From Bacteroidota bacterium (GTDB lineage: Bacteria > Bacteroidota > Bacteroidia > Chitinophagales > Chitinophagaceae), in NCBI GenBank assembly GCA_030706635.1, contig JAUZOD010000038.1:1-39213 (forward strand): 39,213 bases of DNA, written 5' to 3'. Below the pieces are notes generated by a model. It searched no databases, had not been told where the DNA came from, and worked only from the letters and a program-made list of their open reading frames with translations. How positions within the stretch are numbered: the first letter of the stretch is position 1; each line of letters opens with the position of its first letter. The position numbers were made by a program, and so were the translations under genes. Shown here one piece after another: positions 7,767 through 38,265 of this stretch.

Positions 7767-10700
7767 CTAATTTTTAATGAACTTCCTGACCATGGTTTTC
7801 CTGTATCCGATATTTATCCGGACGGTGTACATACCGGGAGCCAGCTGACTGACGACGAATGTTTTTTCAACGATGTCTCCGCTTTTTTCAATCTGGTCGG
7901 TTAATACCGCTCTGCCGTTCATATCATACATATTCACCCGCACGGTACCCCTGACAGAGCTGGTGATTCTACCGTTAATCACATCATGTGCAGGATTGGG
8001 ATACAATACCAGCCGGTCGGCGATGCCGGATTCCTGTATCACCACCAGCTTCATGCTGGCCGTTGACGTAGCACCCTGATTATCGGTCACGGTAACCTGG
8101 AATTCATATTCTCCCGCCTGCAGGTCACTGATATTTACTTTCGCGCTGCTCATCGACGTACTGGTAACCGTATTGGGTCCGTTCACTTCCTCCCACTGGT
8201 AAGAACTGATATTCCCGTCAGGATCTGATGATCCGGAAGCATCCAGCAGAAAATTACTCGTGGGAAGATTCAGTGTATCGCTGCGGCCCGCGTCGGCCAG
8301 CGGTGTCTGATTAGCCTTGGGAACTTGCGCATTTACCGTTACGGTAACCTGATCCTTGGCCGTGGCCCCGCTATTATCCGTCACAGTCACCTCGAATACA
8401 TACTGACCAACCGTCAACAACTGGGAAACCGTTGGCTTTACCGAGTTGCCTGCAGTGATTGTAGCGGTTGATGGTCCGGAGATCTGCTTCCAGCTATACG
8501 CCGTAATGGTTCCATCCGGGTCAAAAGAACTGCCGGCGTTCAGCGCTATGCTGCTTACCGGAGACGTGATGGTCAGGTTATTTCCTGCATTGGCTACCGG
8601 CAGCTGATTGGCCGCGATGGCTTTAGGATTCACGGTGATGGTCACCTGATCCTTGGCTGTCGCTCCCTTGTTGTCGGTTACCGTCAGCTCGAATACATAA
8701 GTTCCCGGTTGCAATCCGATCACGGAAGGCGTAGCGGTATTAGAGTTGCTGATGGTAGTAGATCCGGGACCGGATGCCATGGCCCAGCTGTACACCGTTA
8801 TGGAACCATCGGGATCATAAGAAGCCGATCCATCGAGATTCACCGTACTGGCGGGTGCCGTAATGGTTTGATTGCTGCCTGCATTGGCATAAGGCAATTG
8901 ATTTGGCGCAGCGGCCACGATGATTTTTACCTGAGCCGTGGCACTGGCTCCCTTATCGTCTGTCACCTTTAATTGATACGTATATTGACCGGCAATCAAT
9001 CCGCTCAGGCTTAACGAAACGGTGTTCGCACCGGTTGCAGCAGGAGTATTGGGTCCTGAAACTTCAGTCCAGCTATAAGAACTAATCGTACCATCCGGAT
9101 CCGAAGACGCAGAACCATTCAGGTTTGCTGTATTAACCGGCAGCGTAATGGTCACACCGGTACCTGCATTGGCAACAGGCGCTATGTTCGCGGCAGCATT
9201 TACCTTGATGATCACGGAATCAATACCCACACCGGCATGATTGTCCGTTACAGCTAAATAGAATATATAGGTGCCGGCAACCAGGTTATTCAGAGTATTT
9301 TGTGCTGTATTGGTAAGGGCAATGCTGGATGGACCTGAACTTTCCGTCCACACATAACTGATTATGCTATTCCCCGATGCAGCGGAGGAAGCGCTTCCGT
9401 CAATGATAACGCTGTTCGTTGGCAGAGTAATCGTTTGATTAGCCCCGGCATTGGCGATCGGTGGTTGAAGTCCTGCGGCGGTAACATTAACTTTTACCTG
9501 CGCGTTGGCCGTCGCTCCATTATTATCTGTTACTGTCAGCCCGAAAATATACTGACCGGCAACCAGATTGCCGGCAGTCGCCGCAGCCATGGCTCCGTTG
9601 CTGATTGTTGATGCGGAAGGCCCCGAAATCTGCAACCAGCTGTAGGAAGCGATGCTGCCATCGGGATCGGATGAAAGTGAGCCATCCAGGGTTACACTAT
9701 TGGTTGGAAGGGTAATTGATTTACCACTTCCTGCATTGGCGACCGGGGGTTTGTTGGCCGCAGCATTTACCGTAACCGTTACGGAATCCGTGCCTGTCGC
9801 CCCGCTATTGTCTGTAACTTTTAAAACGAAATTATATACACCGCGCTGTAGCCCGGATATGCCACTGGATGCTGTAGCGGGTGATGCAATAGCGGCTGCG
9901 GATGGGCCGGAAGACTGGCTCCAGGCATAGGCTGAAATGGTTCCATCGGGATCTTGCGACGCAGTCCCGTTTAAATTTGCCGTAGTTGCCGGTAAGGTGA
10001 CCGTGATATTGGCGCCCGCATTTGCAACCGGAGGTTGATTTTGGACAACTGCAGCATTCACCGTCACTTTAACAGTATCCAGCGCCGTTGCGCCCGCATT
10101 ATCCGTCACCTTCAGCTGGAATGAGTACACACCCGCCACCAGATTGCTCAAACCTGGACTGACTAATGAACTATTGGCTAAAGTGAACTGGGAAGGGCCC
10201 CCGATTTTTGTCCATGCGTAAGACGCTATTGAACCGTCCGGGTCATTTGACAAAGTCCCATTCAAATTCGTTACATTTGCCGGTAGAGTTAAGCTGATAT
10301 CTGCACCTGCACTCGCAACCGGAGGTTGATTTTGGGCAACTGCAGCATTCACAGTTACATTCACAGTATCCAGCGCTGCTGCGCCTGCGTTATCCGTAAC
10401 CTTCAGCTGGAATGAATATACACCAGCCACCAGATTACTTAATCCTGTGCTGGCTGATGAGCTATTGGCTATAGTGAACTGGGAAGGGCCACTAATTTTA
10501 GTCCACGCGTAAGATGATATAGATCCGTCCGGATCGCTGGAAGAACTACCGTCTAAATTCGTTGCATTGGCTGGCAGGGTTATACTGATATCTGATCCGG
10601 CCTTGGCAACAGGCAGCTGATTGCCGGTAGCGGCAACGACAGTTATCTGAATACTCGCTGTTGCGGAAGCACCCTGATTATCGGTAACTGTCAAATTAAA

Positions 10701-24622: not shown

Positions 24623-26509
24623 ATGATTCCCCTGAATATTCCTGAACAAATGGAAAAAACATATTCAAATAATCCAGGCAACCGTTTCCTGTTTCCCTTT
24701 TTTGGCAGGCTGAGCCCCCGTATGTTCTTTCTGCTGGTATTTGCTTTTCAGGTGATGCTGATTTTCCAGGGATTTGACCTGTCTGACGAGGGCTTTCTGT
24801 CCATCTTCTACCGGCGGATCTTCAGCGATCCGGTATCTGTATCTTATAATTTCATGTTCTGGCTGACCGGAATAATCGGTGGTCTCTGGGTAAAGCTGGT
24901 TTCGCCACTGGGCCTTTGGGGAATCCGGCTGGGTGGCGCGATCGTGAATACAATCACGGTTGCGATCACCTATAACCTGCTCAGGAAGTACCTGAATCCT
25001 GAATATTTAAAACTGGGGTTGCTGCTGGTGGTCCTGTCCCTGAACAATGATATCAAAGTATTAAACTACAATACCCTATCCTCCCTATTTTATGTCATCG
25101 CGATTTATTTCCTCCATTCAGGCCTGAAGAAAGCGCATTGGGGAAAGATATTCCTGGGCGGGTTTTTCGTGGGCTTAAATGTCTTCATCCGAACGCCGAA
25201 CATCCTGGAATTGGGCCTGGTGCTGGGAATAATTTATTACTGCCATCTAACCCATCAGCGGATCGGAAAAACAGTCTGGCAGATAACCGGATTCATCGCC
25301 GGATTCCTGGCAGGCGCAGGCTGCGTTCTCTTTGCCATGTACCTGACCGGCCATCTGGATATTTTTCTTGACTCATTGAAATTGTTATTTTCCATGGGGA
25401 AAGTGAAAACCGGAAATCCGGCTGCACAGAACGGTTATGGCTTATCCCGACTGCTTTATTTATTCTGGGCCAATAATATCCAATCCATAAAATACGCAGG
25501 CATTTTCTCTGCCGGCACCCTCGGAACCGCATTCCTGATGAGCAGATTTGAAAACCAGTCAAAACTTATAAAGCATATTGCAGGAACTGCCTTCTACGGT
25601 ATTGTCGCGTTGATTCTGCTGCTGATCATCATCCACAGAATTGACCATTTTACCATATTGTTTTTCATAACCGGCGTTGTCCTGATAACCGCTGTCTTTC
25701 TGGTATCCGCGCCCATTGACCTGGAGTTGAAAATATTGTTCTTTTTCGGGTGCTTCTTCCTGTTATCCTTTCCGCTTGGGAGTTCGGATGGCCTTTATAC
25801 AGCCGGCCGGTATTGCCTTTGGATTGCATTACCCGTTGCCATAGATTATCTGCTGCATCTTCATGCACTTCAAAATACACTGGTCATCAACCGGAATAAA
25901 CGGGAATATTCCAGGAAAGTATGGATTTCAGAAAAACAGCTTACCATTACCAAAAGGACTTTATTGTACCTGGTCATTTTCGGCGGTTTTTATCATGCCT
26001 ATTATTATCCCTTCTTTGACAGGCGGAACAGAACGGAAATGCACTATGCCTTACACAGCGATCATCTTAAGGGCATTTATACCACCCGCGGACGGGCCGA
26101 TGCCTTTAACGAGCTGTTGCAGGCAAGCGCGAAATACATAAGGCCAAATGATCATGTAATGGCCTATGACCGCATTGCCATGTACTACTATGCCAGCAAT
26201 ACAATTCCTTTTCTCGGCAATTCCCTTCCTTCTGTGTACAATGCAGATCTGTTTAGGTCTGACCTGCACAGATCCATTGAAAGAAACCCGGTTCTTCCCG
26301 TAGTGATCAGGCAAAAAATTGCCACTACCGGAACGGCCAGCAAGTGGCCGGAGGAAATTCTTCCCGGTGATTATTCCAGGGATGAGCTGAGCGTGGACCG
26401 GAATAATATTCTGGATAGTTTTCTCGTACAGTATGGCTATCGAGAGGTTTGGGAGAATGTGGCCTTTAAAATATTAATTCCGGATAAATCAAAAACTTCA
26501 TCTGAATAA
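24623..26509 (+). CDS. Multi-pass membrane protein, probable GT-C type glycosyltransferase
   Basis: A 628-residue protein with about ten to twelve hydrophobic helices and a soluble C-terminal domain of roughly 130 residues. After the first helix comes FQGFDLSDEGFLSIFY; the acidic pair Asp55-Glu56 in the first periplasmic loop is the kind of motif that binds the polyprenyl-phosphate sugar in GT-C enzymes (ArnT/PMT-type). The C-terminal domain (IRPNDHVMAYDRIAMYY) looks like the soluble domain of such proteins. It would transfer a sugar from a polyprenyl-phosphate donor in the periplasm. A GtrB-like synthase at 31152-32099 could make that donor. The start may instead be the Met at 24650. I do not recognise a named homologue; GT-C assignment is inferred from topology and the motif. 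Confidence 0.65.
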   Translation: MIPLNIPEQMEKTYSNNPGNRFLFPFFGRLSPRMFFLLVFAFQVMLIFQGFDLSDEGFLSIFYRRIFSDPVSVSYNFMFWLTGIIGGLWVKLVSPLGLWGIRLGGAIVNTITVAITYNLLRKYLNPEYLKLGLLLVVLSLNNDIKVLNYNTLSSLFYVIAIYFLHSGLKKAHWGKIFLGGFFVGLNVFIRTPNILELGLVLGIIYYCHLTHQRIGKTVWQITGFIAGFLAGAGCVLFAMYLTGHLDIFLDSLKLLFSMGKVKTGNPAAQNGYGLSRLLYLFWANNIQSIKYAGIFSAGTLGTAFLMSRFENQSKLIKHIAGTAFYGIVALILLLIIIHRIDHFTILFFITGVVLITAVFLVSAPIDLELKILFFFGCFFLLSFPLGSSDGLYTAGRYCLWIALPVAIDYLLHLHALQNTLVINRNKREYSRKVWISEKQLTITKRTLLYLVIFGGFYHAYYYPFFDRRNRTEMHYALHSDHLKGIYTTRGRADAFNELLQASAKYIRPNDHVMAYDRIAMYYYASNTIPFLGNSLPSVYNADLFRSDLHRSIERNPVLPVVIRQKIATTGTASKWPEEILPGDYSRDELSVDRNNILDSFLVQYGYREVWENVAFKILIPDKSKTSSE

Positions 26510-26561: not shown

Positions 26562-27575
26562 GTGTCAAATATCAATGTCGGTGTTGTTGGCTATGGCTAC
26601 TGGGGGCCTAATATCGTAAGAAACTTCTTTGCCAACGCGGCATGCACCCTTAAATCGGTGGCCGACGGGCGCCAGGAACGGCTGAATCTGCTGGCGAAAA
26701 TTTTCCCTTCAATAAACGGCGTCAAAGACGCTGAAGACGTGATCAGCAGCCCGGATATTGATGCCGTCGTGATTGCTACGCCGGTATTCACGCATTTCGG
26801 ACTCGCTAAACGCGCCCTCCAGCAGGGAAAGCACGTGCTCATCGAAAAGCCCATGACCTCCTCCGTGGCCGAGGCGGATGAGCTGATTGAACTGGCTGCC
26901 CGGAAAGGGCTCGTTCTTATGGCGGATCATACTTTTCTCTATACCGGCGCCGTGCAGAAGATGAAAGAAATCATCCAGACCGAAGTGATCGGAACGCCTC
27001 TGTACTTTGATTCCGCCCGTATCAATCTCGGATTGTTCCAGCCTGATATTAATGTACTCTGGGATCTGGCCCCCCATGATATTTCCATACTTACCTATCT
27101 GATAACCGAGGAACCGGAAAGCATCAATGCCACCGGCATTTCGCATACGCGCAACGAGGTGGAGAATATTGCTTACCTGACAGTCAACTACAGTTCGGAT
27201 TTTATCGCTCATTTCAATTGTTCCTGGTCCTCGCCAGTAAAAGTGCGGCAAACCCTGATCGGCGGTAATAAAAAAATGATCCTGTACAATGATCTGGAAC
27301 CTTCAGAAAAAGTAAGGGTTTACGACACGGGTTATAGTCATAAAACGGAGGAAGACAAAACCAGGATCATGGTGGACTACCGGACCGGGGACGTCTTCAT
27401 CCCGAAACTATCCAGCCGTGAAGCGCTGGCCGGTGTTGCGGATGATTTTATCCAGTCGGTTCTCCAGAAAAAAGATCCGCTGTCCAATGCGCAGCTTGGC
27501 AGAAGTGTAGTAAAAATACTGGAGGCTTCCCAGTTATCCATTAAACAAAAGGGTAAAGAAGTGAGAATAAAATAA
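26562..27575 (+). CDS. Gfo/Idh/MocA sugar-nucleotide dehydrogenase
   Basis: A 337-residue NAD(P)-dependent oxidoreductase with a GTG start. The Rossmann motif GYGYWGPN follows the first strand, then IATPVFTHF, the conserved EKP motif (HVLIEKPMTSSVAEADEL) and DLAPHDISIL with the family active-site His. In polysaccharide loci such enzymes (WlbA/WbpB, GnnA) oxidise the 3-hydroxyl of a UDP-GlcNAc-type sugar to a 3-keto product. The next genes are the matching hexapeptide acyltransferase (4 nt later) and DegT aminotransferase, the same order as in the 3-amino sugar pathways. No UDP-sugar 6-dehydrogenase is in the window, so whether the substrate is UDP-GlcNAc or its uronic acid is open. Confidence 0.87.
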   Translation: MSNINVGVVGYGYWGPNIVRNFFANAACTLKSVADGRQERLNLLAKIFPSINGVKDAEDVISSPDIDAVVIATPVFTHFGLAKRALQQGKHVLIEKPMTSSVAEADELIELAARKGLVLMADHTFLYTGAVQKMKEIIQTEVIGTPLYFDSARINLGLFQPDINVLWDLAPHDISILTYLITEEPESINATGISHTRNEVENIAYLTVNYSSDFIAHFNCSWSSPVKVRQTLIGGNKKMILYNDLEPSEKVRVYDTGYSHKTEEDKTRIMVDYRTGDVFIPKLSSREALAGVADDFIQSVLQKKDPLSNAQLGRSVVKILEASQLSIKQKGKEVRIK

Positions 27576-27579
27576 TATC

Positions 27580-28068
27580 ATGGAAAAGATCAGCATTAAT
27601 AACGACAGACAAAGCCTGAACAATGTACACATTGGCGAGAACGTCCGCATTTTCAATTTCGTTAATGCCTATGGCTGCAGTATCGGAGACAATTCAAAGA
27701 TCGGCGCCTTTGTGGAAATTCAGAAAGGTGCGTCCATTGGAAAGAATTGTAAAATTTCCAGCCATACCTTTATTTGTGAAGGCGTACACATTGAGGATAA
27801 TGTCTTCGTGGGCCACGGCGTCATGTTTACCAACGACCTGTTTCCCAGGGCGACCAATGCCGATGGCAGCGCGCAAACGGAAGCCGACTGGAAGGTTATT
27901 GAGACAACAGTAAAAAAAGGCGCATCCATTGGTTCCAATGCCAGCATTTTATGCGGCATCAGCATCGGCGAAAATGCGTTGATTGGCGCGGGTTCGGTAG
28001 TGACCAAAGATGTTCCGCCGAATACCGTGGTAGCCGGTGTTCCTGCAAGAGTGATTAAATCTATTTAA
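27580..28068 (+). CDS. Hexapeptide-repeat N-acyltransferase (WlbB/WbpD/FdtC-like)
   Basis: A 162-residue left-handed beta-helix acyltransferase. Hexapeptide repeats run through the protein (IGDNSKIGAFVEIQKGASIG, then IGSNASILCGISIGENALIGAGSVVT). The segment GHGVMFTNDLFPRATN is characteristic of sugar-nucleotide N-acetyltransferases of the WbpD/WlbB/FdtC group, and the end DVPPNTVVAGVPARVIKSI is the usual cap. It would acetylate the 3-amino group added by the aminotransferase encoded next, using acetyl-CoA, as a trimer. It starts 4 nt after the dehydrogenase stop and is followed after 15 nt by the aminotransferase. The acyl donor is inferred from the family. Confidence 0.88.
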   Translation: MEKISINNDRQSLNNVHIGENVRIFNFVNAYGCSIGDNSKIGAFVEIQKGASIGKNCKISSHTFICEGVHIEDNVFVGHGVMFTNDLFPRATNADGSAQTEADWKVIETTVKKGASIGSNASILCGISIGENALIGAGSVVTKDVPPNTVVAGVPARVIKSI

Positions 28069-28083
28069 ATACCTGTAAGCGTT

Positions 28084-29184
28084 ATGGATAAAAAAATACC
28101 CTGTCTGGATCTGAAAGGACAACATCAGCAAATCAAAAAAGAAGTTTTTGAGGCTTTTGAAAAAGTATATGATCAAACGGCTTTCTCCGGAGGACCCTTT
28201 GTGGAGGCCTTTGAGAAAAGCTTTGCCGGTTTTTGCGGCACAAACTATGCCGTTGGCGTGAACAACGGCACTACGGCCCTCCATTTAGCCATGCTGGCGC
28301 TTGGTATTGGCCGGGGCGATGAAGTGATCATTCCGGCAAATACCTTTATCGCGACGGCCTGGGGTGTATCATACACGGGAGCGATTCCCGTTTTTGTTGA
28401 TTGCGACCCCCTCACCTGGGAAATAGATGCTTCAAAGATAGAAGCAGCCATAACCCCAAAAACAAAAGCCGTCATCGGGGTTCACCTCTACGGGCAGCCA
28501 TTCGACATTCATGCCGTTAAGGCCATTTGTAAAAAACATAATCTTTATCTTATAGAAGATGCCGCTCAGGCGCAGGGCGCCGCATATCACGGTGTTCCTG
28601 TGGGTGGATTTAGCGAGATGGCCTGCTTCAGCTTTTATCCCGGCAAGAATCTCGGAGCCTGCGGGGAAGCCGGCGGCATAACCACCAACAAAGAAACCTA
28701 CAGCAGGCACCTGCAGAGCCTCCGCAATCATGGTTCGGTGGTGCGATATTACCATGATGAAATTGGTTATAATATGCGGATGGGCGGACTGGAAGGCGCT
28801 TCCCTGAGCGTAAAACTAAAATACCTGCCAAACTGGAATCAAAAAAGGAAGGAGATCGCCGGGAAATATCACGCCGCCTTAAAGAATCCAAAAATACAAA
28901 TGCAGCTTCAGCCGGAAGGACACGATTCTGTTTTTCACCTTTTTGTAATCACAACAGAAGACCGCGAGCAACTGACCAGGCACCTGAACGATAGGAATAT
29001 TTTTCCGGGACTGCATTATCCCGTACCCTGTCATTTGCAAAAAGCCTATGCCGGGCTCGGATATAAGAAAGGCGATTTCCCGAATTCAGAATACCTGGCC
29101 GATCACTGCCTTTCCCTGCCTATGTATGCTGAATTGACAAACGAAGAAGTGGATTATGTGATCAACACATTGAACAGTTACTGA
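28084..29184 (+). CDS. DegT/DnrJ/EryC1/StrS aminotransferase (3-amino sugar type)
   Basis: A 366-residue PLP enzyme. The internal aldimine Lys is Lys188 in SFYPGKNLGACGEAGG, a segment typical of the FdtB/QdtB/WlbC subgroup that aminates C3 of a keto sugar nucleotide. Other hallmarks are GVNNGTTALHLAMLALGIGRGDEVI, PANTFIATAW, and IEDAAQAQGAAYHG with the Asp that pairs with the PLP nitrogen. It would convert the 3-keto product of the Gfo/Idh dehydrogenase to an amine using glutamate. The unknown Rossmann-like gene begins 2 nt after its stop. Confidence 0.9.
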   Translation: MDKKIPCLDLKGQHQQIKKEVFEAFEKVYDQTAFSGGPFVEAFEKSFAGFCGTNYAVGVNNGTTALHLAMLALGIGRGDEVIIPANTFIATAWGVSYTGAIPVFVDCDPLTWEIDASKIEAAITPKTKAVIGVHLYGQPFDIHAVKAICKKHNLYLIEDAAQAQGAAYHGVPVGGFSEMACFSFYPGKNLGACGEAGGITTNKETYSRHLQSLRNHGSVVRYYHDEIGYNMRMGGLEGASLSVKLKYLPNWNQKRKEIAGKYHAALKNPKIQMQLQPEGHDSVFHLFVITTEDREQLTRHLNDRNIFPGLHYPVPCHLQKAYAGLGYKKGDFPNSEYLADHCLSLPMYAELTNEEVDYVINTLNSY

Positions 29185-29186
29185 AT

Positions 29187-30221
29187 ATGCTTATAGATAA
29201 ACTCGTTAAACAGGTCAGGGAGCTGCAGCTCAATTTAAAAGGCAAAACGGTTCTGACGGAAGCTGCTACCGGAGCCTATATTGTCACTCCGGTTTTAGCC
29301 GCCCTTGCCGGCGCAAAGGTTTTTGCCTTTTCAAAAACCACCCGTTACGGCACGGTGGACGAAGTGTTTGCCGCCACAAAACAACTGGCCTGCTCGTTCA
29401 AAGAATTCCCGCTCGATATCCATTACACCGATAAGCTCACCCCGGAAATTATCTCACAGGCAGATATCATCACCAATTCCGGACACCTGAGGCCATTGAC
29501 CGAAGCCGTGCTGGGCCATGCAAAAGATGAGGTGGTCATCCCGCTGATGTATGAAGCCTGGGAATGGCGGGAGGCGGACATGGATATAAACTACATAAGA
29601 AAAAGAGGGTTTAAGATCGGGGCCACCAATGAAAGACATCCTTCTGTTGATGTTTTCAACTACCTCGGTGATATGGCCTTAAAACAGATTTTTGATGCGG
29701 GAATCTGTCTCTATAAGAATAAGTTTATCCTGCTGTGTAATAACGATTTCGGTCCCTTCATCGCGAGGGTCATCGCAGCCGTCTGCGACGGACTTGCTGT
29801 GATAGACAAAGATGAAAACAAATCCCGGTACGATTTTAAAAACATTGAGTGGATCGGTGGATTTCCGGATATCCGCATACCGCCTGCATACAAAGATGCG
29901 GAAGCGGTTATTTTTACGGCTTACCCATTTGACCAGAACTGGATCGGAGATAAAACGCCGGTAAGCTTACAGAATATTAAGTCGCAGCTCACGGATCCCC
30001 TGATACTCCGGTATGCAGGCGATGTGGATGCAGAAGTTCTGAGAAAAGAAAACGTCCGGTTCTATCCCCAGGATGTACACAGCGGGCATATGGGCATACT
30101 GCCGTCCGCCGTCGGGTATGATCCCATCATCCGGTTGCAGTCCGGCGGATTGAAAGCGGGTGAAGCCCTGCTCAGTGGTAAACACGAATACAACAATATA
30201 AAAATACTGGATCTCGTATGA
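29187..30221 (+). CDS. Unrecognised Rossmann-like protein coupled to the formyltransferase
   Basis: A 344-residue soluble protein that I cannot assign to a named family. It has a helical lead-in, then a strand-loop-helix TEAATGAYIVTPVLAALAGA leading to AKVFAFSKT, which looks like a dinucleotide- or SAM-binding half. Further conserved-looking stretches are ITNSGHLRPLTE, PLMYEAWEWREADMDIN, LCNNDFGPFIARVIAAVCDG, WIGGFPDIRIP and FYPQDVHSGHMGILPSAVGYDP. The layout recalls adenosylhomocysteinase-like or NAD-dependent dehydrogenase folds, without a full match. It starts 2 nt after the aminotransferase stop and overlaps the formyltransferase start by ATGA, so it belongs to the amino-sugar cassette. 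A role as a sugar-modifying, cofactor-handling or scaffold protein is inference only. Confidence 0.75.
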   Translation: MLIDKLVKQVRELQLNLKGKTVLTEAATGAYIVTPVLAALAGAKVFAFSKTTRYGTVDEVFAATKQLACSFKEFPLDIHYTDKLTPEIISQADIITNSGHLRPLTEAVLGHAKDEVVIPLMYEAWEWREADMDINYIRKRGFKIGATNERHPSVDVFNYLGDMALKQIFDAGICLYKNKFILLCNNDFGPFIARVIAAVCDGLAVIDKDENKSRYDFKNIEWIGGFPDIRIPPAYKDAEAVIFTAYPFDQNWIGDKTPVSLQNIKSQLTDPLILRYAGDVDAEVLRKENVRFYPQDVHSGHMGILPSAVGYDPIIRLQSGGLKAGEALLSGKHEYNNIKILDLV

Positions 30222-31165
30222 GTACCGAAAATCATTTGATCGCCATCGGCCGTTCCCGCTATCTGTACGACGGAATAAAATACCTGCAATCCAAAGGATA
30301 TGTATTTAAGGCCATCGTCACGGAAGAAGCATATGAAGAATACGACGTGAAACACACCGATTTTGAATTGCTGGCCAGGAGCCTGGGCTGCCGGTTCTTC
30401 ATGATCAAATCGTTAAATAATGATGAATTAATCCAGATCGTCAAATCGAATCATATCCGGGCCGCCATCAGCGCCAACTGGAAATATACCATACCGAAGA
30501 GTTTCCTCGATCTTTTTGCCTGCGGCATACTCAATTTTCATTTGGGAAACCTGCCCGATTATAAAGGAAATGCCACCGTTAACTGGACCATCATCAACGG
30601 AGAGTATGAAATTTACGGGAATATTCATAAAATGGATCCCGAGCTGGATGCCGGGGACGTTATAGCCAGAAAATCAATACCACTGAGGGAGAATACGTAT
30701 ATTGCCGATGTCCTTCAGCAGGCAGCGCTGGATGTTCCGTTCCTCTATGAAGAAGCTTTAAAAAGGATATTTAAACAGCCCGATGCCTTTGAGGTGAAAG
30801 GTTCTTTAGAGGGCCTGCGCTGTTACCCGCGCTTACCTGAAGACAGCCGGATAAACTGGAATGAAACGGCGGAAACCATTTGCCGGCTTATCCGGGCCTC
30901 GGCCCATCCCTACCCCGGGGCGTTTAGCTATCTGAACGGGGAGAAAGTCATTATCTGGAAAGCTGCCGTATTTATACCGGGTGAGAGATTCCTGGCGGTA
31001 CCCGGACACGTAGTGGCCATACAAAAAGATACTAAAACCATACGGATCGCCTGCAGGGAAAATTTCCTCGAAATTCAGGAAATTGAATACCAGGGCAAAG
31101 TAATGGCCCCTGCCGAGTTTATTAAAAGCATCCGGGTCAGATTTAAAAACGATGCCAATGCATGA
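30218..31165 (+). CDS. Sugar N-formyltransferase (ArnA/Fmt-like)
   Basis: A 315-residue formyltransferase. The catalytic triad is intact and has the spacing of Fmt and the ArnA formyltransferase domain: Asn106 and His108 in GILNFHLGNLPDYKG, and Asp144 in MDPELDAGD. The substrate loop NATVNWTIINGE is the sugar-enzyme variant rather than the tRNA-enzyme one. The C-terminal part (about 210-310) resembles the Fmt C-terminal domain (SYLNGEKVIIWKA). It would transfer a formyl group from N10-formyltetrahydrofolate to the amino group of a sugar nucleotide, presumably one made by one of the DegT aminotransferases. It overlaps the preceding unknown gene by 4 nt and the following GT2 by 14 nt. Confidence 0.87.
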   Translation: MSTENHLIAIGRSRYLYDGIKYLQSKGYVFKAIVTEEAYEEYDVKHTDFELLARSLGCRFFMIKSLNNDELIQIVKSNHIRAAISANWKYTIPKSFLDLFACGILNFHLGNLPDYKGNATVNWTIINGEYEIYGNIHKMDPELDAGDVIARKSIPLRENTYIADVLQQAALDVPFLYEEALKRIFKQPDAFEVKGSLEGLRCYPRLPEDSRINWNETAETICRLIRASAHPYPGAFSYLNGEKVIIWKAAVFIPGERFLAVPGHVVAIQKDTKTIRIACRENFLEIQEIEYQGKVMAPAEFIKSIRVRFKNDANA

Positions 31166-32099
31166 TCTGAATAAAACCAAAATATCTGTTATCATACCCA
31201 TTTACAATGAGTATGAGGGCATCCCCTACCTGGTCGACAACCTGAATGCTTTTTTTGTGCAGTATCCGGAAATGGAGCCGGAGGTTATTTTCGTCAATGA
31301 CGGTTCGAGGGACCATTCGGTGGAAAGGCTGCTGGAAATGAAACACGGATCTTACAAAGCAAAGGTCATCAGCCTTTCCCGGAATTTCGGATCCCATGCC
31401 GCCCTACGGGCAGGTATTTCCATAGCCGGCGGGGAGCTGGTTTGTTTTAATTATGCTGACCTGCAGGATCCGCTCGAGCTCATTATCCGGATGGCAGAAA
31501 AAACAAAGGAAGGCAGCGACATCGTCTGGGCACACCGCGAAAGCACCAAAGTATCTTTCGGAGAGAAAACCTTCTCTTCTTTTTATGCGTATCTGATGAA
31601 AAAATTTGCTTTCAGCAATTTTCCGGAGAAAGGTTTTGACATCGTCATGTTCAACCGGAAAGTGACCGCCGAAGTCAACAGCAATGTGGAAGCCAATTCA
31701 TCCATTTTCTTACAAATACTGGGCATGGGCTTTCGGCAGGATTCCATTTCCTATAAAAAACGGGAAAGAAAATCCGGGGTCAGCAAATGGACCCTCTCTA
31801 AAAAGGTGAAATTATTTATCGATTCGTTTGTCGCGTTTTCCTATGCCCCTATCCGCATGGTGACCATCGTCGGCATTTCGATGTTCTTTGTTGGCCTGTT
31901 ATGGACGATCTATATCATCTTCCGCAAAATATTTTTCCATAACCTGGCCAGTGGCTGGCCGGCACTGATGTCTATATTGATGATCGGGTTCGGCATCACC
32001 AATATCTCCCTGGGTATTATTGCAGAATACCTCTGGCGAACCCTGGATGCCAGCCGGCGAAGACCGGTATTTATAATTGATAAAATAGTTGAATTATGA
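31152..32099 (+). CDS. GT2 with two C-terminal helices (GtrB/polyprenyl-phosphate sugar synthase-like)
   Basis: A 315-residue GT-A enzyme. The N-terminal catalytic domain has ISVIIPIYNEYEGIPYLVDNL, FVNDGSRDHS, and YADLQDP with the metal-binding Asp; RKSGVSKWTLSKK is the typical GtrB/DPM1-like juxtamembrane motif. Two C-terminal membrane helices follow (about 235-258 and 270-292). Enzymes of this shape move a sugar from UDP or GDP to undecaprenyl phosphate at the cytoplasmic face. The product could feed the GT-C-like protein encoded at 24623-26509. It overlaps the formyltransferase by 14 nt and the epimerase by ATGA. A second Met six nt downstream could be the real start. Confidence 0.87.
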   Translation: MPMHDLNKTKISVIIPIYNEYEGIPYLVDNLNAFFVQYPEMEPEVIFVNDGSRDHSVERLLEMKHGSYKAKVISLSRNFGSHAALRAGISIAGGELVCFNYADLQDPLELIIRMAEKTKEGSDIVWAHRESTKVSFGEKTFSSFYAYLMKKFAFSNFPEKGFDIVMFNRKVTAEVNSNVEANSSIFLQILGMGFRQDSISYKKRERKSGVSKWTLSKKVKLFIDSFVAFSYAPIRMVTIVGISMFFVGLLWTIYIIFRKIFFHNLASGWPALMSILMIGFGITNISLGIIAEYLWRTLDASRRRPVFIIDKIVEL

Positions 32100-33070
32100 A
32101 TAAAGTTAAAGACAGCATCATCCTGGTGACCGGAGGCGCAGGATTTATCGGATCCTATGTTATTGAAGAGCTCATTCCCTTAAAACCTAAGAAGATCATC
32201 ATTATAGATAATCTGATTCGCGGCAGCAGAGCCAATATGAAAAGCTTTCTCGATAATCCGGTTGTTGAATTCCATGAAGGCGATATCCGGGATCTTGTTT
32301 TGCTGGAAAAATGCATTGCCGGTACGGATTATATTTTTCATATGGCCGCCCTTCGCATAAACGCCTGTGCTGCCAATCCCAGCGACGGATTTGATGTGAT
32401 GCTGAAATCAACTTTTGAGGTTGCATCCCTAAGCGCAAAACATAAAGTAAAAAAAATAATATACAGCTCCAGCGCTTCCGTCTATGGTCTGGCTCAGCAT
32501 TTTCCAACGCCGGAAACGGATAACCCGTATAACAATCAGACCTTCTACGGAGCAGCCAAAATGTGGGGTGAACAACTCTTCCGAAGCTTTAAATTCATGT
32601 ATGGCCTCGATTATGTAGCCCTGAGATATTTCAATGCTTATGGACCACGTATGGATACCGATGGCAAATACACCGAAGTCATGATCAAATGGCTGGATTG
32701 TATCCGCGATGGAAAAACCCCACTAATCTTCGGGGACGGTTCAACGACGATGGATTTTGTGTATGTCAGGGACATTGCCAAAGCGAATGTAGCCGCCTTG
32801 CAGGCAGAAGTGACCGATGAAGCATTCAATATTGGCAATTGCGAGGAAACAAGTCTTAAAGGCCTGCTGGACGTCTTACTGAAAGTGAATCATTCCACCC
32901 TTTCTCCTGAATTCAGGGCGGAAAATTCAATCAATCCGGTCAGCCGCAGGCTGGCCGACATCAGCAAGGCAAAAAAATTGCTGGACTTCAGCCCAACGGT
33001 AAGCCTTGAAAAAGGAATGAAGGAACTTACCGAATGGTATTTTGAAAAAATAAAAATAACCACCGACTAA
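32096..33070 (+). CDS. NAD-dependent epimerase/dehydratase (extended SDR)
   Basis: A 324-residue extended short-chain dehydrogenase. The cofactor motif is GGAGFIG (13-19); the catalytic set is Ser125 region (YSSSASVYG) with Tyr151 and Lys155 (YGAAKMWGEQ). The substrate region LRYFNAYGPRM and FGDGSTTMDFVYVRDIAKAN matches UDP-glucose 4-epimerase-like enzymes and sugar 4,6-dehydratases. It produces an epimerised or keto sugar nucleotide. The next gene is a DegT aminotransferase that overlaps its stop by one base (TAATG), so the two likely act in sequence. The exact reaction, epimerisation versus dehydration, is not decided by the sequence alone. Confidence 0.88.
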   Translation: MNKVKDSIILVTGGAGFIGSYVIEELIPLKPKKIIIIDNLIRGSRANMKSFLDNPVVEFHEGDIRDLVLLEKCIAGTDYIFHMAALRINACAANPSDGFDVMLKSTFEVASLSAKHKVKKIIYSSSASVYGLAQHFPTPETDNPYNNQTFYGAAKMWGEQLFRSFKFMYGLDYVALRYFNAYGPRMDTDGKYTEVMIKWLDCIRDGKTPLIFGDGSTTMDFVYVRDIAKANVAALQAEVTDEAFNIGNCEETSLKGLLDVLLKVNHSTLSPEFRAENSINPVSRRLADISKAKKLLDFSPTVSLEKGMKELTEWYFEKIKITTD

Positions 33071-34197
33071 TGATACCCATAGCGAAACCTTACCTGACGA
33101 AGAAAGAAGCAAAAGCGGCTTACGATACCATCCTCAGCGGCTGGATCACCCAGGGACCCCGGGTGGCCGAATTTGAAGAAAAATTCGCAGCCTATACCGG
33201 AGCAAAATATGCTGTCGCCGTCTCAAACTGTACCACGGCCCTCCACCTGTCCATGATCGTGGCGGGTGTTGGTCCCGGAGATGAAGTGATCTGCCCGTCT
33301 ATGAGTTATATCGCGACGGCCAATTCAATCAAATACGTCGGTGCGAAACCGGTATTTGCAGAAATCAATCCGGCCAACTATAATCTGGACTTGAAAGACG
33401 TTGCCCAAAAGATAACCGGCAAAACAAAGGCCATCCTGCTCGTGCACCAGATCGGCATGCCGGCTGATATAGACGCTTTTAAGGAGCTTGCCGCCAAACA
33501 CCACCTGAAGCTGATAGAAGATGCCGCCTGCGCGGCGGGGTCCTCCTATAAAGGAGCTAAAATCGGCAGTCATTCGGAACTGGTTTGTTTCTCCTTCCAT
33601 CCCAGAAAAGTGATCTCCACCGGGGACGGCGGCATGATTACCACCAACAACGAAGCTTATTATAAGCGGATGAAATTACTCAGGCAACATGGCATGTCTG
33701 TCAACGACCGCGTACGGCACGAATCGTCAAAGATAATATTCGAAGACCATCTGGAGCTGGGATACAATTACCGGCTGACCGATATCCAGGCAGCGGTGGG
33801 CATCAAACAGCTTGAAAAATTAGACTGGATCATAGCCAAAAGAAGAAAGATAGCGCTCCGTTACCACAAGGCATTTAAGGGTATCGGGTGCATCCAGCTG
33901 CCGGTAGAAAAGAAAGGGTATTCGAGCAACTACCAGTCTTACAGCATCTATCTGAAAGACGATTGCTCCAAAAGCCGGAATGATATCATGCAGGCCATGC
34001 TCGATGCCGGCATCTCCACCCGCCGGGGAATTATGACAACCCACCGGGAAACAGCCTATAAGGAAGAATATGCGGGCCTGCGCCTGCCGGTTTCAGAAAA
34101 AGCCTGTGACCGCAGCATCATCCTGCCGCTGTATATTCCGATGCAGGATGAAGACATTGAAAAGGTTATCCATACATTTACTTCCTTATTACAGTAA
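33070..34197 (+). CDS. Second DegT/DnrJ/EryC1/StrS aminotransferase
   Basis: A 375-residue PLP enzyme of the perosamine-synthase-like branch. The PLP Lys is Lys180 in SFHPRKVISTGDGG. Other marks are ILSGWITQGPRVAEFE at the N-terminus, VSNCTTALHLSMIVAGVGPGDEVI, PSMSYIATAN, and IEDAACAAGSSYKG. This branch usually aminates C4 of a 4-keto-6-deoxy sugar, unlike the C3-type enzyme at 28084-29184. The overlap with the SDR suggests that the SDR makes its keto substrate. The initiating transferase follows after 15 nt. C4 specificity is an inference from the branch. Confidence 0.9.
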   Translation: MIPIAKPYLTKKEAKAAYDTILSGWITQGPRVAEFEEKFAAYTGAKYAVAVSNCTTALHLSMIVAGVGPGDEVICPSMSYIATANSIKYVGAKPVFAEINPANYNLDLKDVAQKITGKTKAILLVHQIGMPADIDAFKELAAKHHLKLIEDAACAAGSSYKGAKIGSHSELVCFSFHPRKVISTGDGGMITTNNEAYYKRMKLLRQHGMSVNDRVRHESSKIIFEDHLELGYNYRLTDIQAAVGIKQLEKLDWIIAKRRKIALRYHKAFKGIGCIQLPVEKKGYSSNYQSYSIYLKDDCSKSRNDIMQAMLDAGISTRRGIMTTHRETAYKEEYAGLRLPVSEKACDRSIILPLYIPMQDEDIEKVIHTFTSLLQ

Positions 34198-34212: not shown

Positions 34213-35604
34213 ATGAAGAAATCCTCCTCCTTTATTTTTTTTCGCACCCTGTTGTGGTTGTGGGACATCATTTCCCTCAACCTCGTATTGTTTATTACCA
34301 GTCTTTTTATTACCCGGGTTGATGATGCATCCGGCCAGAACCCCTATCATTTCTATTTTGCCGTAATTAATCTCTCCTGGATGATCTCCGTTTACCTTAC
34401 GGCTTTGTACCTGAGTAAGAACTGGCTTGATTTTGATGTCTTTTTCAAGCGGACCATCAAATGCTATTTCTTAAACGCAGCGATCATTTTCCTGTTTGCA
34501 TTACTATACCCTTATCCCTATTCTCATTTTTTCACCACGGCCTGCCTGGTCGGCTTTGCTTTTGTGCTGATCATGAACAGGATCGTTTTTAATCTGCTGG
34601 TGATTTCGCTCAGGAGCCAGTTCAGGCTGGCCAAAAATGTGGTTGTGCTCGGATACAATGATGTTTCGATCCGGCTGATCCATTATTTTAAAAATGAAGC
34701 CAAACTGGTGCGGCTGGCAGGTTGCTTTGATGACAAGGGATTGATTGAAGATTCAGACGACATGCGGGTTATCCGTAAACTGGAGGATTGTATGCGTTTT
34801 GTAAAAGATAACAATGTAACGGAAATATATTCCACCCTCATTCCCGAATATTATCCTTACCTGTATGAACTCGCAAGAGAAGCGGAGAAACAATTCGTGT
34901 ACTTTAAATTCGTTCCGGACTACCAGATCTTCGTCAACCGCATCATATTCGTCGATTTTTTAAATGATATACCGGTTCTCTCTTTAAGAAAGGAGCCATT
35001 GGAAGATACCGGTAACCGGATTAAGAAAAGAACCTTCGATGTTTTATTCAGTTTCCTGGTAATTGTTTTTATCCTCTCCTGGCTGGTGCCATTGATTGCC
35101 CTCCTGATTAAACTGGACTCCCGGGGCCCTGTATTCTTTATCCAGCTCAGATCGGGAAAAAATAATCAGTCCTTCCGCTGTATAAAGTTCAGAAGCCTCA
35201 GGGTGAATGATGAAGCGGATTCCAAACAGGTAAGTCGGGATGACAACCGGATCACAAGACTGGGCCGGTTCATGCGCAAGACCAATATTGACGAGCTGCC
35301 CCAATTCTTTAATATTTTCTGGGGGGATATGTCCCTGGTTGGCCCCCGGCCCCACATGCTCAAGCACACCAAGCATTTCGCAGAACTTTACAAGGAATAT
35401 ATGATCCGGCATTTTGTAAAACCCGGACTCACCGGATGGGCCCAGGTGAATGGTTTCCGGGGCGAAATCAGGGACAACGACTTCTTAAAGAAAAGAGTGG
35501 AATACGATATCTGGTATATCGAAAACTGGTCTCTCTGGTTTGACATGAAGATCATTCTCCAGACCATCCTGGTCACCATCAAGGGAGATGAGAACGCCTT
35601 CTGA
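34213..35604 (+). CDS. Initiating phosphoglycosyl transferase (WcaJ/WbaP-like)
   Basis: A 463-residue polyprenyl glycosylphosphotransferase. Four to five helices fill the N-terminus (about 1-130), then a Rossmann-like middle domain (KNVVVLGYNDVSIRLIHYF), then one more helix (about 275-300) and the catalytic domain: KRTFDVLFSFLVIV, SRGPVFFIQLRSGKN, RKTNIDELPQFFNIFWGDMSLVGPRPHM (Asp-Glu near residues 360-361) and KPGLTGWAQVNGFRGEI. It transfers a sugar-1-phosphate from a UDP-sugar to undecaprenyl phosphate and so starts the repeat unit. It is the last gene of the right arm. The 195 nt downstream hold no strong terminator. Confidence 0.93.
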   Translation: MKKSSSFIFFRTLLWLWDIISLNLVLFITSLFITRVDDASGQNPYHFYFAVINLSWMISVYLTALYLSKNWLDFDVFFKRTIKCYFLNAAIIFLFALLYPYPYSHFFTTACLVGFAFVLIMNRIVFNLLVISLRSQFRLAKNVVVLGYNDVSIRLIHYFKNEAKLVRLAGCFDDKGLIEDSDDMRVIRKLEDCMRFVKDNNVTEIYSTLIPEYYPYLYELAREAEKQFVYFKFVPDYQIFVNRIIFVDFLNDIPVLSLRKEPLEDTGNRIKKRTFDVLFSFLVIVFILSWLVPLIALLIKLDSRGPVFFIQLRSGKNNQSFRCIKFRSLRVNDEADSKQVSRDDNRITRLGRFMRKTNIDELPQFFNIFWGDMSLVGPRPHMLKHTKHFAELYKEYMIRHFVKPGLTGWAQVNGFRGEIRDNDFLKKRVEYDIWYIENWSLWFDMKIILQTILVTIKGDENAF

Positions 35605-35799: not shown

Positions 35800-38265
35800 A
35801 TGGATACAAGAAGAGAGTTCTTAAAGAAGATGACGATGCTTTCCGGTATGGCGGGCATGGCCAGTTTACAACCTTCCATCCTGCGGGCACTGGCGATTGA
35901 CCCAGAAGCCGGAAGCACGTACCTCGATGCGGAACATATTATTTTGCTGATGCAGGAGAACCGTTCTTTCGACCACACTTTAGGCACCCTGCGCGGTATT
36001 CGCGGCTTTAACGACCCCAGGGCCATCACCCTGCCTGACCAGAATAAAGTATGGCTCCAGAAAAATTCAGCGGGAGAAGTCTTTGCGCCCTTCCGGCTCG
36101 ACATCAAAGACACGAAAATAACCTGGATGGGCTCCTTGCCCCACAGCCGTCAGAGTCAGATGGGCGCCAGAAATAATGGCCGGCATGATAACTGGATCGA
36201 GGCAAAGAAATCCGGCGACGATGACTATAAAGATATGCCCATAACGATGGGCCATTATACCAGGGAAGACATCCCGTTCTATTATGCAATGGCGGATGCA
36301 TTTACTGTTTGTGATCAGAACTTCTGTTCGTCCCTGACCCCTACGGATCCCAACAGGCTTTATTTCTGGAGTGGTACGGTGAGACCGGAGAAGAAGGCCG
36401 AGGCACAGGCTTACGTGGATAACGACGATATCGAAAGCGGCGTAGAATGGCCAACATTTCCCGAGCTACTGGAGCAGCATGCCGTTTCCTGGAGAATATA
36501 TCAGAATGAACTTAGTGTTGACGGCGGCTTTACCGGTGAAGAAAATTCCTGGCTTGCCAATTTCGGCGATAACCCAACAGAATTTTTTAAGCAGTACCAC
36601 GTAGAACTTTCCAGGAGACATATTGATTACCTGCCAGTAAGAATCAGAAAACTGCAGCAGGAAACGGAAGACTTAAAATCCAGAATCCCCTCGCTGACCG
36701 CCGGAAGCGCCGAGCTGGAAAAGGCGCAGAAGCACTTAAAAAGAATGGAGGATTCGCTGAAAACCGCCGAAGAAGACCTGAAGAACTGTACGGTAGAAGA
36801 ATTTGATGGTCTCCCGGAATTCACGAAAACGATACATCAAAAGGCATTCTCCGTGAATTCCGGCGATCCTCACCAGCATGAGCTGACGCCTTTGGAATAT
36901 ACCGAAGGAGCGACGGACCGGAAAATAAATATTCCGAAGGGTGATGTGCTCCACCGCTTCCGGGATGATGTACAAAGCGGGCAGCTCCCGACTATTTCCT
37001 GGCTGGTGCCTCCGGAAGCTTTCTCTGACCATCCCAGTTCACCCTGGTTTGGCTCCTGGTTTGTTTCCGAAGTGATGGATATCCTCACGAAGAATCCCGA
37101 GACCTGGAAAAAAACGATCCTCATACTCACCTACGATGAGAACGACGGTTACTACGATCATGTACCGCCATTCACGGCGCCAGATCCCCGGGTCCCTTCT
37201 TCCGGAAAAGTCTCCGAAGGCATTGATACCAACCTTGAGATGGTGAACCTGGAAAAGGATGTTACCGGATCAATAGGTCTGGGGTTCCGGGTTCCGATGA
37301 TCATCGCCTCGCCGTGGAGCCGCGGGGGATATGTGAATTCGCAGGTGTTCGATCATACCTCAACCCTGCAGTTTATCGAGCATTTCCTGAACAGGAAATT
37401 TGGAAAAGATATAACCGAAACAAATATCACCGACTGGAGACGCACGGTATGTGGCGATCTGTCATCCATATTCCGGCAGTACAACGGAGAGCGCATAACC
37501 GGTCTCCCGTTTATTGAAAAAAATCCCTTTATTGAAGGTATTTATAACGCCAAGTTCAGAAATGTTCCTTCCAATTACAAAGCATTAACGGAAAGTGAAA
37601 TAGAACAGATAAACCATGCGCCCGCCAGTTCGGCTTATATGCCGCAACAGGAAAAAGGCATCCGGCCTGCCTGTGCCCTTCCCTATGAACTGTTTGCCGA
37701 TGGTAATTACGATGCCGCGAACAAGCAGTTTACAATCACCCTGGGAGCCGGAAATAAATTCTTTAAAGAACACGCCGCAGGAGCTCCCTTCATTGTTTAT
37801 GCACGAAATTACGGCCAGCGTGACTTTAAAGATTTCAACTACGCCGTGAAAGCAGGTGACCAGTTACAGGATGCCTGGCCGGTAAATGGGTTCGGAAATA
37901 ACCAGTACCATCTGCAGGTATATGGGCCAAATGGATTTTTCCGCGAGTTCGAAGGCAATGTCCATGATCCGATGATCGCCGTTTCCGTTAGGCATCTTGT
38001 CAATGGAAATGCGGAAATAAGCTTTACAAACAAGTCTTCCAAAGATTATCCGGTTGAAATTTCGGACAAGACATACCATAACCACCCGGTGACCAAACAC
38101 ATAAAAGCGAATTCGACCATCACCGTGATTCCTTTTGATCTCAGCAAGAGTTTCGGCTGGTATGATCTCGGAATAAGCCTGTCCGGGGTTAGCCTGTTTT
38201 CCAAGCGGTTTGCCGGTCGCGTGGAAACGGGCAAAGAGAGCAAAAGTGATCCTGCGTTCGGTTAA
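35800..38265 (+). CDS. Tat-exported phospholipase C, phosphocholine-type
   Basis: An 821-residue bacterial phospholipase C of the AcpA/PLC family. The N-terminus DTRREFLKKM is a Tat signal, followed by a hydrophobic stretch. The catalytic domain starts at ILLMQENRSFDHTLG and includes GHYTREDIPFYYAMAD, CDQNFCS, TYDENDGYYDHVPPF and FDHTSTLQFIE, the metal and nucleophile regions of the family. A coiled-coil insert at about 267-330 (RKLQQETEDLKSR and following) splits the domain. Two C-terminal DUF756-type domains (about 625 onward, and about 725 onward with NAEISFTNKSSKDYPVEI) match phosphocholine-specific enzymes. It hydrolyses phosphatidylcholine or sphingomyelin-like lipids, or scavenges phosphate. 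It is transcribed alone, after the polysaccharide locus. Confidence 0.92.
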   Translation: MDTRREFLKKMTMLSGMAGMASLQPSILRALAIDPEAGSTYLDAEHIILLMQENRSFDHTLGTLRGIRGFNDPRAITLPDQNKVWLQKNSAGEVFAPFRLDIKDTKITWMGSLPHSRQSQMGARNNGRHDNWIEAKKSGDDDYKDMPITMGHYTREDIPFYYAMADAFTVCDQNFCSSLTPTDPNRLYFWSGTVRPEKKAEAQAYVDNDDIESGVEWPTFPELLEQHAVSWRIYQNELSVDGGFTGEENSWLANFGDNPTEFFKQYHVELSRRHIDYLPVRIRKLQQETEDLKSRIPSLTAGSAELEKAQKHLKRMEDSLKTAEEDLKNCTVEEFDGLPEFTKTIHQKAFSVNSGDPHQHELTPLEYTEGATDRKINIPKGDVLHRFRDDVQSGQLPTISWLVPPEAFSDHPSSPWFGSWFVSEVMDILTKNPETWKKTILILTYDENDGYYDHVPPFTAPDPRVPSSGKVSEGIDTNLEMVNLEKDVTGSIGLGFRVPMIIASPWSRGGYVNSQVFDHTSTLQFIEHFLNRKFGKDITETNITDWRRTVCGDLSSIFRQYNGERITGLPFIEKNPFIEGIYNAKFRNVPSNYKALTESEIEQINHAPASSAYMPQQEKGIRPACALPYELFADGNYDAANKQFTITLGAGNKFFKEHAAGAPFIVYARNYGQRDFKDFNYAVKAGDQLQDAWPVNGFGNNQYHLQVYGPNGFFREFEGNVHDPMIAVSVRHLVNGNAEISFTNKSSKDYPVEISDKTYHNHPVTKHIKANSTITVIPFDLSKSFGWYDLGISLSGVSLFSKRFAGRVETGKESKSDPAFG

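Follow-up and report, generated by a model that had tools for sequence, protein, structure and literature searches.

A Rossmann-like protein without a family name, linked to acylation genes in bacterial amino-sugar operons

Two kinds of described amino-sugar pathway come closest to the locus analysed here. Sugar N-formyltransferase operons (ArnA type and others) resemble it in carrying a formyltransferase with an Asn-His-Asp motif and in their glycosyltransferase, ArnC being among the matches of the GT2 protein of the locus. Pathways for 2,3-diacetamido and 2,3,4-triacetamido sugars, which we take to include Wbp and Wlb as systems of the same logic, share with it the combination of a Gfo/Idh/MocA oxidoreductase, a 3-aminotransferase and a hexapeptide N-acetyltransferase. 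The locus differs from the former in an unassigned protein (P0001, ORF 29187–30221; working label UNK) encoded between aminotransferase and formyltransferase, and from the latter in that UNK and special acylation genes stand where the last acetylation could act. To our knowledge, no UNK homologue is known in the ArnA-type and other N-formyltransferase pathways. A 2,3,4-triacetamido sugar has been described in a Psychrobacter O-antigen (PMC8040287).

The operon and its unassigned protein

The window is the whole stretch of DNA that was analysed, a 39,213 nt contig from a member of the Chitinophagaceae. The gene order in the operon is Gfo/Idh/MocA, hexapeptide acyltransferase, DegT, UNK, formyltransferase, PgfS/ArnC-like GT2, extended SDR, second DegT and WcaJ-type transferase. 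The features are:

24623..26509, + strand, PMT_2 membrane glycosyltransferase (Pfam), ArnT-like by our reading
26562..27575, + strand, Gfo/Idh/MocA oxidoreductase (Gfo), probable 3-dehydrogenase of a UDP-amino sugar (NF040723, 132 bits, below the cut-off of 450)
27580..28068, + strand, hexapeptide acyltransferase, probable 3-N-acetyltransferase (Pfam, NCBIfam and PDB matches)
28084..29184, + strand, DegT aminotransferase 1 (DegT1), probable 3-aminotransferase (best PDB match QdtB, 369 bits)
29187..30221, + strand, UNK, 344 aa, two Rossmann-like domains (ORF, alignment, predicted structure)
30218..31165, + strand, N-formyltransferase (Fmt; best PDB match ArnA, 94 bits)
31152..32099, + strand, GT2 glycosyltransferase, PgfS/ArnC-like (150.5 and 142.1 bits, both below cut-off)
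32096..33070, + strand, extended SDR, 4-epimerase-like, with the motif SSSASVYG (Pfam, NCBIfam and PDB matches)
33070..34197, + strand, DegT aminotransferase 2 (DegT2), PseC/ArnB-like, probable 4-aminotransferase (PseC, 343 bits, below the cut-off of 423.5)
34213..35604, + strand, WcaJ-type undecaprenyl-phosphate sugar-1-phosphate transferase (421.8 bits, above cut-off)

QdtB is a 3-aminotransferase. The PDB sequences nearest to the hexapeptide protein are WxcM-like, N-acetyltransferase, lipopolysaccharide acetyltransferase and QdtC entries; the Gfo protein had no PDB sequence match at E ≤ 1e-25, and DegT2 none at E ≤ 1e-75. Residues N106, H108 and D144 of the formyltransferase, the catalytic trio of the family, are kept in all 44 aligned members of its cluster. 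In the SDR cluster (63 members), the motif is acid-free in 45 (e.g., SSSASVYG), carries an acid in 12 (e.g., STSEIYG) and is of neither form in six.

Several neighbouring features vary. A small EamA/ArnE-like membrane protein is common in relatives (21 loci in all), mostly between the GT2 and SDR genes; the window has none at this place, and its GT2 and SDR genes overlap (31152–33070). The PMT_2 gene (24623–26509) shares the strand of the operon in the window and in two loci lacking UNK (L115 and L123), but the 11 relatives in which it was matched have it opposite to the operon. A 1564-aa protein with many PKD domains, a DUF4832 domain and a Por secretion tail (7767–12461) adjoins polysaccharide genes, and directly after the operon lies an 821-aa protein (35800–38265) with a Tat-like signal at its start, phosphoesterase/phospholipase C-like by eye.

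The UNK ORF begins with ATG and encodes 344 aa on the forward strand. It is separated by 2 nt from the end of the DegT1 ORF (29184), and its TGA overlaps the ATG of the formyltransferase (ATGA; ORF from 30218), so the position between these two genes given in the initial annotation agrees with the ORF coordinates. The same annotation had left the protein unassigned, and this also held: a Pfam search gave no match at E ≤ 1, NCBIfam gave only shikimate dehydrogenase (E 0.0073, residues 7–99; 15.7 bits against a cut-off of 432), PDB sequences gave no match at E ≤ 10, and a search of PDB sequences with the family profile reached a best E of 0.37. The fold of UNK is known; Pfam, NCBIfam and the PDB sequences, the libraries covered here, give its family no name. 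A literature search, with most subscription journals outside its reach, returned no paper recognised as treating UNK, and one around the Bordetella triamino-uronamide clusters returned nothing on it. The new point is the coupling of UNK to acylation chemistry.

Relatives, neighbourhoods and the acylation slot

A search of genome contigs with a three-sequence profile found 139 UNK relatives, of which the best 80 were kept, and tblastn found two plasmid records with a relative annotated only as hypothetical protein. The best 80 come from Bacteroidota, Cyanobacteria, Alpha- and Gammaproteobacteria, Actinomycetota, Planctomycetota, Gemmatimonadota, Chloroflexota and Omnitrophota; a scan of viral contigs and a search of phages gave no relative. 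The 61-row alignment A3 combines P0001 with sequences from 60 of the 80 contig loci; the other 20 loci and the two plasmid rows are not part of it. The 60 relatives are 37–74% identical to UNK, and 30 columns are invariant, 14 of them polar and 19 polar, glycine or aromatic. Because of the 139 relatives, the two plasmid records and the invariant columns, the ORF is regarded as real beyond chance.

The distribution of UNK is patchy. It was found in 1 of 395 genomes drawn from the phylum of the window (the window's own), in 7 of 195 genomes of its family (own genome included) and in 2 of 100 genomes of the family of G401, a Bradyrhizobium (G401 included). Genomes of these two families gave either matches with E below 1e-130 or none at E 1e-3, with no divergent paralogue.

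Neighbourhoods were compared at 82 relatives (the best 80 of the 139 contig loci and the two plasmid loci); L003, which is the window, was left out. Gfo is present at 66 of these 82, DegT1 at 59, the hexapeptide gene at 56, and SDR and DegT2 at 64 each. Two or more of the four genes Gfo, DegT1, SDR and DegT2 are in the locus at 68 of the 82, and none of them at 13, all alphaproteobacterial. Eight of these 13 split cases were tested (L052, L060, L062, L066, L069, L074, L078 and L083; L064, L070, L071, L072 and L077 were left out), and in all eight Gfo, the hexapeptide gene, DegT1, SDR and DegT2 lie together elsewhere in the same genome. In four, the cassette contig has the same length as the UNK contig, which places the two 22–31 kb from each other; in the other four, the contigs differ in length. 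At L028, the Gfo and SDR genes are on the contig of UNK and Fmt, and a DegT gene searched for on that contig was not found.

An acylation gene lies within 4.5 kb of UNK at 75 of the 82 relatives. The partners are a formyltransferase (46), a FemAB-like protein (10), FkbH with GNAT (8), an LpxD-like hexapeptide protein (6), GNAT alone (2), FkbH alone (2) and FemAB with formyltransferase (1); 47 of the 82 thus have a formyltransferase, and 28 have LpxD-like, GNAT, FkbH or FemAB genes without one. The listed acylation genes are absent within this distance at the remaining seven (L002, L021, L025, L063, L070, L075 and L076). The contig ends soon after UNK in L025 and L076, the slot of L021 contains a 267-aa hexapeptide protein, and L002 carries an Fmt on the opposite strand at a distance of about 5 kb. 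The initial annotation had placed UNK in an amino-sugar and formylation operon. This is borne out, a link to acylation genes is seen across several phyla (75/82), and the linkage is stronger than is visible from sequence alone. The more specific link to formyltransferase stands at the 47 loci but was too narrow, given the 28 relatives with other acylation genes and the seven with none; formyltransferase is one partner of several.

At L029 and L030–L035, DegT1 and the 3-N-acetyltransferase are missing from the locus, and the sugar is therefore not the same everywhere. UNK stands alongside a 222–229 aa hexapeptide protein in L030–L035 and L020. That of L034 is of NeuD type (163.6 bits, cut-off 160.8), and a NeuD-type protein and UNK can thus occur together. 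The genes after UNK in these seven loci encode a methyltransferase, the hexapeptide protein, a 305-aa protein weakly similar to GH130 and one of FemAB-like type.

Further genes were seen close to UNK in single loci. Two cyanobacterial proteins adjoining UNK carry a metallo-beta-lactamase domain, one of 514 aa together with SCP2-like (Rv3818) and Rieske domains (L148:4246–5790), the other of 296 aa with this domain only (L046:9075–9965). They resemble N-acetyl hydroxylases, and an N-glycolyl group is therefore possible at these loci. A 464-aa flavin-reductase-domain protein lies between DegT1 and UNK at L067:8535–9929, with FemAB-like and methyltransferase genes after UNK. A MaoC-SDR fusion (L024:12190–13377) adjoins FkbH and GNAT genes after UNK, a composition that suggests a built hydroxyacyl group. 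At a Bradyrhizobium UNK locus (L060:18896–20640), a gene with a weak formyltransferase match (26.9 bits, cut-off 26.1) overlaps one for a polysaccharide deacetylase, and the two form an ArnA/ArnD-like pair.

To avoid looking only at UNK sites, cassettes were also collected through the SDR. A close SDR (E ≤ 1e-80) was found in 11 of 195 genomes of the window's family and in eight of 396 genomes of its order, four of them new; 291 genomes of the class of Nostoc carneum gave 11 SDRs at ≥67% identity, the remaining 8 of 19 matches (44–47%) being left out. Of the 26 SDR loci, 24 were classed (L125 and L126 were left out: contig end; SDR alone), 12 with UNK and 12 without. The slot of the UNK-positive cassettes holds a formyltransferase (9), FemAB with formyltransferase (1), FemAB with methyltransferase (1), or GNAT, glyoxalase-like and FkbH genes (1; L167, where the SDR is on another contig). 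That of the UNK-negative cassettes holds a hexapeptide acyltransferase (10) or no ORF of at least 80 aa (2). A formyltransferase is accordingly found in 10 of 12 UNK-positive and 0 of 12 UNK-negative cassettes, and across the 24 compared cassettes the presence or absence of UNK predicted the acyl genes of the slot. The hexapeptide protein is a NeuD-type acetyltransferase in the UNK-negative Bacteroidota that have one (n = 4; 160.8–198 bits, cut-off 160.8) and of another type, below the cut-offs of the listed models, in the Cyanobacteria (n = 6). UNK was sought in the whole genomes of all 12 UNK-negative cases and was absent from each. Among these, the L154 cassette is incomplete, and the slot of L117 also contains a third DegT and a gene resembling glycosyltransferases.

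A core-enzyme tree (Gfo, DegT1 and DegT2; 'quick' method) was built from the 63 of 96 loci with all three genes (52 UNK-positive, 11 UNK-negative; L154 was among those dropped). Subject to one long row (L053) and composition warnings, it requires at least nine changes of UNK state, which are also forced by the starred branches alone, and the state clusters barely more than shuffled labels do (mean 10.4; between 64 and 68 of 500 shuffles gave a number as low). Among seven cassette proteins, Fmt tracks the identity of UNK best (r 0.955; DegT1 0.941), in correlations that ignore shared ancestry, and over the same pairs UNK is more conserved than Fmt (0.52 vs. 0.43). From the slot contents and the at least nine state changes it follows that UNK and the special acylation genes swap as one unit in an otherwise similar pathway, a swap tested in two phyla, Bacteroidota and Cyanobacteria. 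UNK is not a core pathway gene. Its assignment to the same pathway as its neighbours holds in a particular sense, the core pathway being found also where UNK is absent.

Fold and conserved residues of UNK

The AlphaFold model of UNK (61 rows; pLDDT 95.5, pTM 0.91) has two Rossmann-like domains. Dipicolinate synthase subunit A (PDB 2rir, 3d4o), likewise of two Rossmann-like domains, is first among the 50 matches listed in a Foldseek search of the PDB (E 4.2e-9, TMq 0.53–0.60 over its chains). Further matches among the 50 are formate and phosphoglycerate dehydrogenases, SAH hydrolase and transhydrogenase domain I, at 9–14% identity; a structure search against BFVD gave nothing useful. Dipicolinate synthase subunit A serves sporulation, not a sugar pathway. 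It is 11–13% identical to UNK, which lacks GxGxxG, and its NCBIfam model (TIGR02853) gave no match above cut-off, one of the 61 members matching at E 0.031. Three loops of UNK are:

29256..29279, + strand, domain-1 strand-loop-helix TEAATGAY, residues 24–31 (T24, E25, A26, A27, G29 and Y31 invariant in 61 rows)
29736..29753, + strand, domain-2 loop CNNDFG, residues 184–189, at the usual place of GxGxxG (N186 invariant, F188 in 60/61)
30084..30095, + strand, GHMG loop, residues 300–303, before the last long helix (H301 in 60/61, M302 invariant)

The initial annotation had called the protein Rossmann-like, in agreement with model and Foldseek, and had quoted ATGAYIVTPVLAALAGA (residues 27–43) as a nucleotide-binding-like strand-loop-helix. 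A strand (21–25) and a helix (29–40) are indeed present in the model, but the loop between them reads T-E-A-A-[T/S/N]-G. The domain-2 loop, placed by hand from the model strand 179–184 and helix 188–199, has the consensus [C/S/T]-[D/N]-N-x-[F/Y]-x in the 61 rows. GxGxxG was sought in both domains and found in none of the 61 rows, so that an intact canonical cofactor pocket is not borne out and an ordinary NAD-dependent reaction is less likely. Invariant or near-invariant residues include E25, Y31, N97, H100, R102, E123, W125, E126, D131, N148, E149, H151, N186, H301, R316 and Q318. These features favour an enzyme with a putative polar cleft over an ordinary NAD-dependent dehydrogenase.

D-2-hydroxyacid and formate dehydrogenases and SAH hydrolase have the same overall fold. 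UNK differs from all of these in that [C/S/T]-[D/N]-N-x-[F/Y] replaces the nucleotide loop and that no profile match is confident. The D-2-hydroxyacid dehydrogenase profiles (PF00389/PF02826) had no significant match to UNK and matched 9 of 61 members weakly (best E 0.0024); 2-Hacid_dh also matched residues 78–146 of the family consensus weakly (E 0.019, 15.1 bits, cut-off 24.6). Profile comparison of UNK with four 2-hydroxyacid dehydrogenases of its own genome gave a probability of 7%, and hhalign with the SAH hydrolase of that genome 3.3%. Shikimate dehydrogenase and FolD profiles had no match above cut-off, a FolD domain being seen in one of 61 members (E 7.2e-6). By hand alignment only, H301 may match the His of the catalytic Arg-Glu-His, and the likely place of the Arg (277) is W, A, C, D or F.

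Proposed role of UNK

UNK is about as likely as not a dedicated enzyme of an N-acylation module whose substrate is a UDP-linked 2,3-diacetamido-4-amino sugar, and would prepare the acceptor amine for non-acetyl acylation; the reaction itself is inferred. In the proposed pathway, Gfo would oxidise C3, DegT1 would aminate it, the hexapeptide protein would acetylate the C3 amine, and the SDR and DegT2 would install an amine at C4. In cassettes lacking UNK, the C4 amine would stay free or be acetylated by a hexapeptide enzyme. Where UNK is present, the sugar nucleotide would first be converted, in the interdomain cleft, to a different acceptor, which would then be formylated or given another acyl group. 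The UNK step would coincide with C4 amination or follow it, and would precede the last acylation, a placement based on the DegT1, hexapeptide and SDR matches and on the 2,3,4-triacetamido sugar described in PMC8040287.

The partner genes imply different donors, pointing to a shared acceptor step, and isomerisation of the acceptor was chosen in view of the differing donors, the unchanged core and the missing cofactor loop. Our guess at the new acceptor, drawn from the missing motifs and the conserved acid/base residues, is an isomer, positional or stereochemical, with the change at the amine or beside it; candidate acid/base residues are E25, Y31, H100, E123, E126, D131, E149, H151 and H301. 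The acceptor role is supported by the presence or absence of UNK together with the special acylation module, the core sugar genes existing without both. Further support comes from the acylation genes near 75 of the 82 relatives, the cassettes of the eight split genomes, the close tracking of UNK by Fmt and the 30 invariant columns. Counting against it, formylation in the other sugar pathways known to us needs no UNK-like protein, seven relatives have none of the listed acylation genes nearby, and some loci lack DegT1 and the 3-N-acetyltransferase or combine UNK with a hexapeptide protein.

In the best surviving alternative, although an unlikely one, UNK would work on the sugar nucleotide as an NAD(P)-dependent oxidoreductase or epimerase with a non-canonical cofactor site. 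FolD binds NADP without GxGxxG, NAD(P) enzymes make up nearly all of the 50 PDB fold matches listed, and weak matches were found to shikimate dehydrogenase, FolD (1/61, E 7.2e-6) and 2-Hacid_dh (9/61, best 0.0024). Basic residues also follow the second strand (R/K at position 50 in 56/61 and at 53 in 54/61). Against this reading are the lack of GxGxxG from either domain in all 61 rows and the low probabilities in the profile comparisons with the dehydrogenases (7%) and SAH hydrolase (3%) of the same genome.

The tight linkage, with overlapping genes in the window, would also fit a role of UNK beside the acyltransferases, as a partner or specificity subunit without catalysis of its own. This is improbable: UNK pairs with acyltransferases of unrelated families, and it keeps 30 columns unchanged across many phyla, which, with 19 being polar, glycine or aromatic, look more like an active site than an interface. 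Lower still stands the possibility that UNK makes or activates the acyl donor, e.g., a one-carbon unit for the formyltransferase, which it adjoins and with which it swaps, and to which the weak FolD match in one member could point. UNK is also found beside LpxD-like, GNAT/FkbH and FemAB genes, whose products should, we assume, use different donors, and donor supply was rejected as the main reading on this ground. That UNK hitchhikes in the locus as an ordinary D-2-hydroxyacid dehydrogenase, as its fold and the weak 2-Hacid_dh matches might suggest, is very improbable in view of the lack of GxGxxG and of any significant family match for the window protein, and of the at least nine state changes coupled to acylation genes.

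Returning to the acceptor-preparing enzyme, UNK is probably a missing enzyme of cell-surface amino-sugar acylation, with an old dehydrogenase-like fold minus the usual cofactor loop. A bolder reading, doubtful at present, is that it founds a new enzyme class, in which a dehydrogenase fold without a dinucleotide site would rearrange a UDP-triamino sugar and so give free choice of acyl machinery (formyl, hydroxyacyl, FkbH-type or aminoacyl) where otherwise only acetylation would occur. Annotation of surface-sugar operons usually proceeds one gene at a time. Should the enzyme role prove right, UNK would add a missing step to bacterial glycan biosynthesis and provide a fold-function case of a dehydrogenase scaffold minus its cofactor loop. 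If the new-class reading is also true, UNK, whose relatives occur in at least six phyla, would act as the switch gene for a plug-in acylation slot.
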